DNA from: an uncultured Lachnospiraceae bacterium
GTDB taxonomy: Bacteria > Bacillota > Clostridia > Lachnospirales > Lachnospiraceae
Direction of reading: 5' to 3'
Length of the DNA stretch: 51,917 nucleotides
Assembly: GCA_947626395.1 (NCBI GenBank)
Contig: CANQRU010000025.1
Location: forward strand, 1 to 51,917
The notes below the pieces were generated by a model that worked only from the letters and a program-made list of their open reading frames with translations, made no database searches and was not told the origin of the DNA. Each line of letters opens with the position of its first letter. Position 1 is the first letter of the stretch. Shown in pieces: positions 34,971 to 38,231 of the stretch. The position numbers were made by a program, and so were the translations under genes.

Positions 34971-35004
34971 AGAGGGCAGGGCCGTTTTTCCGGTTCGGCC
35001 CTCT
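34971..35004 (+). terminator. Terminator-like hairpin after GH2
   Basis: AGAGGGC (34971-34977) pairs with GCCCTCT (34998-35004), with an inner GGCCG/CGGCC alternative. The T-rich part is in the loop and only a weak TTGTATTT follows. Probably ends the GH2 transcript together with the next hairpins. Confidence 0.5.
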
Positions 35005-35008
35005 GCTT

Positions 35009-35087
35009 GTATTTCCATGCGAGCAGGACGCCAGTGACGTCCTGCTCGTATTTCCATGCAAGCAAGGCGCCAGTGACGCCTTGCTTG
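35009..35087 (+). repeat. Two tandem 39-bp GTATTTCCATGC hairpin repeats
   Basis: Copies B (35009-35048) and C (35048-35087) each consist of GTATTTCCATGC, an 11-bp stem and the loop CCAGTGA. Stem B is CGAGCAGGACG/CGTCCTGCTCG (35020-35048) and stem C is CAAGCAAGGCG/CGCCTTGCTTG (35059-35087). Three base pairs differ and all are compensated, while loop and leader are constant. This is strong evidence that the hairpin is maintained. Could be a REP-like element or tandem processing/termination structures. Confidence 0.75.
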
Positions 35088-35135
35088 TATTTGCTGCCTT
35101 CCTGATGTATACATGACGTGTTTCTTATAAAATAC

Positions 35136-36373: not shown

Positions 36374-36991
36374 ATGAGCAGGATCGAACAGCTGATCGAG
36401 GAGATTGAGGAGTATATTGACGGGTGCAAGCCGGCCCCGCTTTCGAATAATAAGATTCTTGTGAACAGGGAGGAACTGGAGGAGCTTCTGGTGGAGCTCC
36501 GTCTCCGCGTGCCGGATGAGATCAAGCAGTATCAGAGGGTCATCAGCAACCAGGAAGCCATCATGAATGACGCCCGCACCCAGGCGGACGCCATGCTTCA
36601 GGAGGCGAAGAGCCAGACCAACGAGATGGTGAACGAGCACGAGATCACCCAGGCGGCTTATCAGGCGGCCAATCAGATCATCGATGACGCCAATGTGCAG
36701 GCGCAGGCGATCCTGGACGCCGCGGTCAACGACGCCAACAGCATCCGCCAGGGCGCCATGCAGTATACGGATGACGCTCTGCATAATCTTCAGAATATCA
36801 TCGCCCATTCCGTGGATACGGCACAGAACCGTTTCGAGGCGTATATGAATTCCATGAAGAGCGCGTTTGACGTGGTGACCAATAACCGCAACGAGCTTCA
36901 TATGCCCGCTCAGCCGCAGGACGCGTCCGCTCCTACAGGCGGAGAAGGCCAGGAAGGCTTTGGAGGAGACTATACAGAAGACATGCTGTAA
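36374..36991 (+). CDS. Coiled-coil protein resembling ATP-synthase b/E-type stalk or DivIVA-like proteins
   Basis: A 205-residue, largely helical protein with no membrane segment. A short N-terminal helix (SRIEQLIEEIEEYIDG) is followed by a continuous Gln/Ala/Asp-rich coiled coil (about 45-170) and a Gly/Pro-rich tail. Such proteins follow coaD in many Clostridia and are often annotated as ATPase-like; no catalytic motif is seen. AAGGGAGAG precedes the start. The last 59 bases overlap the convergent ylbJ gene. A scaffolding role in division or envelope is only a guess. Confidence 0.7.
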   Translation: MSRIEQLIEEIEEYIDGCKPAPLSNNKILVNREELEELLVELRLRVPDEIKQYQRVISNQEAIMNDARTQADAMLQEAKSQTNEMVNEHEITQAAYQAANQIIDDANVQAQAILDAAVNDANSIRQGAMQYTDDALHNLQNIIAHSVDTAQNRFEAYMNSMKSAFDVVTNNRNELHMPAQPQDASAPTGGEGQEGFGGDYTEDML

Positions 36992-38177
36992 TCGTATGCA
37001 GCAGTTTCCAAAGAACATAATGCCGGATGGACAATCCGGCATTTTTCGCGGGCAACGAGCCGGGCGGAGATGCTTGCATCTCCATCCGGCGACTGCCGCG
37101 AAAGCGATCGAGCCCTGCGGAGCAGGGGTCGATCGGATATGCGGGCAACGAGCCGAGCGGAGACGCTTGCGTCTCCATTCGGCGACTGCCGCGAAAGCGA
37201 TCGAGCCCGGCGGAGCAGGGGTCGATCGGATGTGCGGGCAACGAGCCGGGCAACGAGCCAGGCGGAGACAAGACGCTGCGGGTCTGGAAGATCCCGGAGA
37301 GCCCGCCGAATGCCGTGACCGCCGTCAGCCAGAAGCCCTGCCGGGGGCCGCTGAAAACCTCTGAAATGGCTCGAATCCCGGTCGTGATCTCTGCGGCTCC
37401 GAGAAAGAGCGCCTTCAGGGCGGCGGGAAGAGCCGGGATCTGCCGGATGAAAGCGGCAAGAATGGAAAACAGCATGATATAGCCGCCGATCCGGACCATT
37501 ACCTCGATCGAACGCATCATAGTTGTGTCGAAATTATCATCAGCCGTCCGCGCGGCAGACGGCTGTCTGCCTTCGCCTGAAGCAGGCCCTGACCTGGATA
37601 AGCCGCCCTTGCGGCCGGACAGATCATTTTCACTGCTATATCTATAAATCTTCCGTGCCAGCATGGACAGCGGCAGAACAGGCAGGTAGAGGCATGCGAT
37701 CACCATCCCGATGGGAACGCCGGGACTGAGATTGGCGGCCAGATATCCCAGCACGAACATGGGGCTGGGATGGTTGCTGATCGCCAGGAGATATCTGGCT
37801 TCCTCACAGGAGATCCTTTCCTGCGCCAGAAATTCCGCGCAGGTTTTGGCCCCCATGGGATAGCCGCAGAGCAGGCCGGAGACCAGCACATAGCCGCCGT
37901 CGTCGGAGAGCGAAAACAGCTTTCGCAGGATCGGACGCAGCGGCGCCATGAGCAGGGGAAGTCCGCCGGCGGACACGATCACATTGGAGCAGATCATAAA
38001 TGGAAGAAGCGTGGGCAGCACGGTATCGGCCCACAGTAAGAGACCGCGTTTGGCGCCTTCCAGCGCCAGCGGGGAATGCGTCAGCAGCAGTAACAGAATG
38101 AGAACGGACGCGGCGCCGGCTGCGGAAGGATGCGGCGCGGCGCTTTTTTTGCGGCAAAATACAGCGGAATGTTCCAT
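36933..38177 (-). CDS. ylbJ: YlbJ-like sporulation integral membrane protein, with in-frame repeat insertion
   Basis: A nucleoside-recognition (Gate) domain membrane protein needed for spore formation. Typical features are LPTLLPFMICSNVIVS, GYPMGAKTCAEFL and FGGLSGIFQT. The normal family sequence continues from GIFQTRSVL to KNAGLSIRHYVLWKLLH, but here about 75 extra residues intervene, formed by the translated repeats at 37048-37270 (for example PIDPCSAGLDRFRGSRRM twice). The frame is kept, as 93 is divisible by 3. ATG 38177 or TTG 38183 could be the start; neither has a clear Shine-Dalgarno. The 3' end overlaps the neighbouring coiled-coil gene by 59 bases. Whether the protein still works is unclear. 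Confidence 0.85.
   Translation of the reverse strand: MEHSAVFCRKKSAAPHPSAAGAASVLILLLLLTHSPLALEGAKRGLLLWADTVLPTLLPFMICSNVIVSAGGLPLLMAPLRPILRKLFSLSDDGGYVLVSGLLCGYPMGAKTCAEFLAQERISCEEARYLLAISNHPSPMFVLGYLAANLSPGVPIGMVIACLYLPVLPLSMLARKIYRYSSENDLSGRKGGLSRSGPASGEGRQPSAARTADDNFDTTMMRSIEVMVRIGGYIMLFSILAAFIRQIPALPAALKALFLGAAEITTGIRAISEVFSGPRQGFWLTAVTAFGGLSGIFQTRSVLSPPGSLPGSLPAHPIDPCSAGLDRFRGSRRMETQASPLGSLPAYPIDPCSAGLDRFRGSRRMEMQASPPGSLPAKNAGLSIRHYVLWKLLHTITACLLYSLLQSLPGLLRL
37048..37270. repeat. Tandem 93-bp structured repeats inside ylbJ
   Basis: Two full copies (37048-37140 and 37141-37233) plus a partial third (37234 to about 37270). The full copies differ at six of 93 positions. The first hairpin in each has arms CCGGGCGGAGATG and CATCTCCATCCGG in copy 1. 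Copy 2 changes both sides of two pairs (G-C to A-T and T-A to C-G), so four of six differences are compensatory. A second hairpin pairs CGATCGAGCCC with GGGGTCGATCG. Translated on the minus strand without stops. Confidence 0.85.
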
Positions 38178-38231
38178 TTTCAACCGAATACAATATCTTT
38201 ATAGCAATGTATGAGACAGAGAGGAACAGAT

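Follow-up and report, generated by a model that had tools for sequence, protein, structure and literature searches.

The repeat array inside ylbJ described here is probably a member of a dispersed, non-autonomous family of palindromic mobile elements (REP/MITE-like), each element being built of two hairpins. It lies in a stretch of 51,917 nucleotides from an uncultured Lachnospiraceae bacterium (genome G000), analysed at its full length and referred to as the window. The evidence consists of the dispersal of the family, the covariation of its structure, sites that are empty in some genomes and filled in others, insertion in frame, and one junction with no visible target-site duplication; from these observations we infer that the family is mobile.

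A tandem array in frame within ylbJ

The first-pass annotation, made from the letters of the window, had described two full 93-bp tandem copies and part of a third inside a sporulation gene, with a unit length that is a multiple of three and an open minus frame. Both points were confirmed, as the array occupies 37048-37268 within a minus-strand ORF (36933-38183) that runs uninterrupted through it. The best NCBIfam match of this ORF was spore_ylbJ (148.9 bits, E 1.9e-43, under the model cut-off of 304.65). The features of the region, including matches to the R1 covariance model, are as follows.

36933..38183, minus strand: ylbJ ORF, with a likely ATG start at 38177
37022..37046, plus strand: inverted repeat and T-run, terminator-like, within the 3' end of ylbJ
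37048..37140, plus strand: unit 1 (93 bp; hairpin 1 and hairpin 2), R1 match of 73.6 bits
37048..37102, plus strand: hairpin 1 of unit 1, with a basal stem, a conserved internal loop (ACGA/GAC), a GCC/GGC stem and a covarying apical stem
37105..37135, plus strand: hairpin 2 of unit 1
37141..37233, plus strand: unit 2 (93 bp), R1 match of 75.2 bits
37198..37228, plus strand: hairpin 2 of unit 2, its position transferred from unit 1, in which the substitution at unit position 69 breaks a pair
37234..37268, plus strand: partial third copy, which represents the unit's 5' end and contains an internal duplication of 12 bp

The stretch at 37022..37046 would be terminator-like judging by its inverted repeat and T-run; the T-run ends and the array starts one base later. 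Units 1 and 2 are arranged head-to-tail and are 94% identical. A search of the host genome and its relatives, which had been proposed as a check, found no further convincing copy of the unit in the genome from which the window comes (87 contigs with a completeness of 98.5%), and matches at E<=0.01 in 8 of 61 genomes (own plus 60 relatives), with 13 matches in a genome of another genus (G032). The sequence variant of unit 1 was absent from the 60 relatives searched, and unit 2 was identical over 93/93 bp to the lone unit of the sister genome G004.

Two other repeats were observed in the window. A second tandem hairpin, unrelated to the first, lies at 34995-35105 (tandem part 35003-35092); its period is 39 bp, its loops read GCCAGTGAC, and its stems are long and perfect, with compensatory differences and a fold z of -7.03. 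This repeat is abundant in its own genome, where the 32 candidates scored gave at least 38 match rows, and seven other genus members gave 36-63 rows each; it constitutes a resident palindromic repeat of the genus. Positions 2657-2780 hold tandem repeats of 15-42 bases, AAG- and GCG-rich, which probably encode a lysine- and alanine-rich protein tail.

States of the ylbJ site in sister species

In YlbJ the array is located between the conserved motifs FGGLSG..QT.SV and GLS.RHY. The earlier claim that it separates residues contiguous in the family needed correction, since loop length varies within the genus and the flanking residues are therefore not strictly contiguous in relatives. The search for empty sites in sister strains, in turn, revealed empty, stump, single and double states of the site: two units plus a stump in the window's genome, one unit plus a stump in G004, the 5' stump alone in G009 and G002 (shorter in the latter), short stretches that may be degenerate remains in G012 and G021, and no element in G008 and others. 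One alignment was disregarded for G008, as the stretch of this genome was misplaced in it. Among 15 ylbJ loci, full R1 matches were obtained in G000 and G004 only, each stump giving one weak match. The G004 unit is identical to unit 2, with flanks that differ by 2.2% and 6.0% from those in G000. Sister species thus display the stages from an empty site through a stump and a single unit to a pair of units, which makes the growth and decay of the element within a gene directly traceable.

The order of T-run, private unit 1, shared unit 2 and more widely shared stump suits repeated insertion at the T-run, the alternative being loss from a longer array. That both units arose purely from tandem duplication of one inserted element, with no repeated insertion, is nearly an even chance in our judgement: the exact 93-bp register and the head-to-tail order favour it, and tandem hairpin copies are present in other lineages (L093, L357/L362; spacing of 74 and 93 bases), but unit 2 is the same in G000 and G004 whereas unit 1 is off at 6/93 positions, a pattern unsuited to a recent duplication but compatible with an old one that G004 has lost, or with a fresh insertion, on the T-run side, from a diverged source. 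Slippage may be the cause of the number of units in ylbJ.

In the predicted YlbJ structure, residues 329-376 have pLDDT values <50 and the next segment, the C-terminal helix, has values of 88-96. According to this model, the insert probably encodes part of a low-confidence, hence disordered loop; it seems to be an added floppy loop that leaves the protein unbroken, and the insert-bearing loop would, by inference, be tolerated. An unrelated, repeat-like in-frame expansion was observed at the identical loop in G013 (L044), which makes this site a hotspot for tolerated insertions.

Spread and copy number of the family

Hairpin 1 is a dispersed, multi-copy and structurally conserved family. The search pattern CAACGAGCCN{18,36}GGCGACTGCC yielded at least 120 stretches in named genomes and at least 123 matches in all; given the size of the collection, about 35 of them were estimated to be possible by chance, which makes the pattern by itself weak proof, but the matches listed also have flanking sequence in common. 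Among 80 matches listed, names were clostridial or of Bacillota, except for one Muribaculaceae MAG and a few without taxon name. The R1 covariance model, at E<=0.001, detected copies in 86 of the 250 genomes sampled within the host's family (own genome counted), with 1 to at least 22 hairpin-1 copies per genome, all of these copy numbers being lower bounds; across the class, 9 of 341 genomes matched, four of them outside the host's family.

Higher numbers were reached with BLAST. Using one copy of G087 as query, this genome gave at least 31 near-full-length matches (~135 bp, 90-99% identity) and at least 9 shorter ones, and three of its congeners gave 21, 9 and 5 match rows. G153 holds at least 40 copies, 38 of which are on one contig, with ~79-111 matched bases. 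In these two genomes the element reaches lengths of ~103 or ~135 bp. In the cases measured, the element spans 78-135 bp. An all-against-all BLAST of the fetched loci returned the ylbJ site as the sole empty site, and in a comparison with three congeners made for a G087 copy the flanks were unmatched and only the element gave matches.

Folding and covariation

Unit 1, the only unit folded in this manner, forms two hairpins, and none of 200 dinucleotide shuffles folded equally well (z of -4.44 as DNA of the plus strand and -5.84 as RNA of the minus strand). The units differ at six unit positions (16, 24, 31, 39, 69 and 92), of which four had been described as compensatory changes in one stem. 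These four do make two compensatory pairs in hairpin 1 (16/39 and 24/31), which are distributed over two adjoining helices and not strictly one stem; of the remaining changes, position 69 breaks a pair in hairpin 2 and position 92 is unpaired. Two or more compensatory pairs resulted from six random substitutions in 0.0265% of 200,000 simulations.

Hairpin 1 was further studied in an alignment of 100 sequences, composed of the two window units and 98 pattern-match rows (the 123 matches listed gave 99 that were distinct and complete, and L098 was omitted by hand). The two 9-10-base anchors of this alignment were set by the search pattern, and their invariance is therefore no evidence, which resides instead in the stems between and outside the anchors; looser matches, e.g., the L235 and G107 copies, show changes in the anchors too, as judged by eye. 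Overall, 90.7% of cells pair, against 28.5-42.0% in slid controls, and cells changed on both sides numbered 241 versus 82.6 in shuffles, none of the 500 shuffles reaching 241. A second hairpin usually follows 3' of hairpin 1, as 63% of 111 downstream regions had z<-2 versus 13% and 19% in two controls, and its sequence varies between lineages across the wider family.

These data bear directly on the proposal that the array is ordinary low-complexity or repeat protein in a hypervariable YlbJ loop, expanded by slippage with no DNA element involved. The variability of the loop within the genus, the other expansion in G013 and the 12-bp duplication in the third copy, indicative of local slippage, would all suit that proposal; against it, a hairpin with the same loop motifs and covarying stems is found at unrelated loci in 86/250 genomes, with dozens of intergenic copies within single genomes. 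An ordinary protein repeat as the full account is thus refuted by the dispersed copies, and we regard the proposal as extremely improbable. Likewise, the outcome that had been named in advance as fatal to an inserted element, namely all orthologues carrying the segment as plain protein with no DNA conservation elsewhere, is contradicted by the empty ylbJ sites and by the dispersed copies.

Gene context of hairpin 1

By crude ORF calling, 82 of the 123 matches listed lie outside ORFs of at least 80 aa and 41 inside, many of the latter in short or start-extended ORFs; a clean insert in a conserved gene was recognized by eye only in L171 among the matches listed. The copies therefore look mostly intergenic and not directed to coding sequence. 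Orientation relative to genes was co-directional in 25 and anti-directional in 16 of the 123 matches listed, and no common neighbour emerged among the flanking ORFs, of which 110 of 183 were scanned, the top Pfam family occurring 5 times. At the gathering threshold, Rfam gave no match in the window, and two matches in eight loci, neither of them over hairpin 1; RF02920 in L112 starts beside hairpin 1 and overlaps the hairpin-2 stretch. A known RNA family was dropped on the basis of these Rfam results in the window and the eight loci.

Hairpin 1 could instead be a signal in RNA or DNA kept by the host (riboswitch-like, a terminator or a protein-binding site), with the ylbJ copy as one of its sites. 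The strong conservation of the internal loop and the covariation fit RNA as well as single-stranded DNA, and in a few cases (L221, L224) a single copy immediately precedes an ICE gene. Such a signal is nevertheless unlikely when set against the lack of a common family among the 110 flanking ORFs, the mixed gene orientation (25 vs 16 among the matches listed), the patchy presence and variable copy number, and the absence of an Rfam match over hairpin 1 in the loci searched.

The ORF that follows the L221 and L224 copies resembles, we presume, Tn916 xis. Further single copies were observed near ORFs of apparent conjugative elements (L235, L237), which we take to be MobC-like. An origin of the hairpin in conjugative elements, as an oriT-like or replication-origin-like sequence whose chromosomal copies are relics, would explain these two kinds of neighbours, yet most loci seen have ordinary metabolic neighbours, and the L112 element returned no plasmid record and one phage record, covering 57% of the element; we hold this origin to be very unlikely. 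The L224 query matched one plasmid over 31% of its length, mainly in the upstream part.

A second in-frame insertion

Another in-frame case was found in L171, where the gene concerned encodes AAA-ATPase_like and PDDEXK_9 domains (PD-(D/E)XK nuclease-type); here the element corresponds to residues 217-242 and adds 78 bp, i.e., 26 extra codons. The L171 protein has 38 matches in its own genome, itself among them, and eight of its paralogues there have matches to residues 1-216 and 243 onward that meet exactly. Three of the 12 fetched paralogue loci matched the motif and were hence read at junction level, and one insertion junction, that of L171, was resolved. The empty site, GGTATT|TGCCC in the paralogue L375, compares with GGTATT|element|GCCC in L171; no flank is repeated at this junction and no target duplication is visible there, and the T-rich left side was present before the insertion. 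Together with the dispersed family and the variable ylbJ site, this case bears out the initial impression that the array resembles palindromic elements spread into coding regions, in a family that is mainly intergenic.

Element ends, strand bias and open frames

On the 5' side, conservation starts abruptly 15 or 14 bases before the CAACG core, in a T-rich stretch (TTTAT-like), in 96 of 120 flanks, the other 24 having been set aside because their 3' side did not start with GCG or GCA. In most copies the 5' foot of the hairpin is T-rich and then reads CCCGCGAG; in the window it reads CGCGGG.

Of 38 copies in G153, 27 run in the same direction as the replichore (p 0.014 by the binomial test and 0.011 by the Fisher test), a bias seen in one genome and confounded by gene direction, which is biased equally. 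For this count the position of the terminus was judged by eye on sampled GC skew values; a permutation test that left the breakpoints free gave p 0.022. The sense of this strand would be as expected if the element strand were the lagging-strand template, by analogy with IS608, whose active strand is the lagging-strand template according to PMC6006769.

All six frames are open in the 93-bp unit and in the L171 element, as they are in 2.9% and 2.8% of shuffles, respectively; in the L255 copy of G087, three of six are open. Per frame, 71 to 100 of the 100 hairpin-1 rows are open, versus 54-62% in simple shuffles. Since the rows are related, their openness constitutes one observation and not one hundred, and part of it is explained by survivor selection, as in-gene copies must be open in the frame used.

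Search for a moving enzyme and a proposed mechanism

The association with a REP-associated tyrosine transposase suggested for the array was sought, and none was found. Among 21 genomes with at least eight copies, 15 have a PF01797 (Y1_Tnp) match and six have none, the base rate being 144 of 250 genomes. R1 was run on 78 Y1 loci (flanks up to 1.5 kb) and gave one clear match, in L350, as well as a weak one in L193 (E 0.3). The L350 match (2151-2206) is a degenerate copy in the copy-rich G153, where it precedes a RAYT-like ORF by ~280 bases; its position could be due to chance, and the L348 locus of G087, with a homologous ORF, contained no copy. With 22 Y1 proteins as tblastn queries, two of 224 element loci matched, L138 being a fragmentary match ~70 bases from the hairpin. 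Thus, neither a RAYT or IS200 parent of the element nor an autonomous relative with identical ends and tnpA was seen in either the 78 Y1 or the 224 element loci, which cover part of the RAYT-like genes.

Our preferred account, that of a mobile two-hairpin family, would proceed as follows. In an ancestor of part of the genus, one copy would have landed next to the T-run of the hairpin that resembles a terminator, in the 3' portion of ylbJ, so that the insert came to lie in a probably disordered YlbJ loop that separates the C-terminal helix from the last of the conserved core helices, and in which stop-free units divisible by three would be tolerated. Later, a further copy may have been added on the T-run side, or a tandem duplication may have occurred, with decay in some sisters. 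The element may move as folded single-stranded DNA by means of an IS200/IS605- or TnpA-REP-like HUH enzyme acting in trans, a step that, taken alone, we put forward tentatively. A bolder possibility, to which we also give somewhat less than an even chance, is that of an undescribed superfamily of two-hairpin mobile DNA in Lachnospiraceae-like and Acetobacterium-like clostridia, in which the internal loop of hairpin 1 would be kept because an enzyme with no tie as yet to a REP or IS reads the folded single strand, and in which a nearly stop-free sequence would permit life within genes.

Comparison with known systems

The literature searched, with most subscription papers outside its scope, held no description of the hairpin-1 family, also when queried with AACGAGCCAA and GGCGACTGCC, and nothing on it was noted in the available parts of PMC3733652, PMC10969869, PMC12306157, PMC8266576 and PMC6006769. 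In REP sequences, GTAG (or CGTC) stands at the foot of the hairpin and the RAYT tyrosine transposase is flanked by the repeats, as stated in PMC8266576 and PMC3733652. The element is a multi-copy imperfect palindrome with conserved unpaired bases, which is what characterizes a REP, and it shares with REP/REPIN/BIME systems and their RAYT (TnpA-REP) the short hairpins, the mainly intergenic location, the tandem arrays and the occasional insertion in genes. It differs in that GTAG or CGTC is absent from the hairpin foot (the 3' foot judged by eye), in its larger unit of 78-135 bp with two unlike hairpins, and in that no RAYT gene flanked by the element was found.

Rickettsia palindromic elements (RPE) are likewise palindromic DNA in frame within protein genes, tolerated as an extra peptide. 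They are reported chiefly within genes (PMC10969869), whereas copies of our element look mostly intergenic and lack that preference for genes. Non-autonomous elements of the IS200/IS605 type resemble it in having a hairpin on each side, no inverted ends and a T-rich 5' side, and may further resemble it in the lack of a visible target duplication (one junction, L171) and in a replichore-biased strand (one genome, with gene direction as a confounder); they differ in that no transposase gene with the ends of our element was found and that its two hairpins are unlike each other. Similarly to classical MITEs (DDE type), the element is small, non-coding, dispersed and apparently moved in trans, but it showed neither a terminal inverted repeat (G087 copy) nor a target duplication (L171). 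The best descriptions of palindromic mobile elements come from proteobacteria and Rickettsia; if the account given here is true, a large group of clostridia, from the gut and from the environment, has a palindromic family of its own that differs in its recognition motif and lacks a known enzyme, and the hairpin-1 family provides a handle toward the enzyme that moves it.
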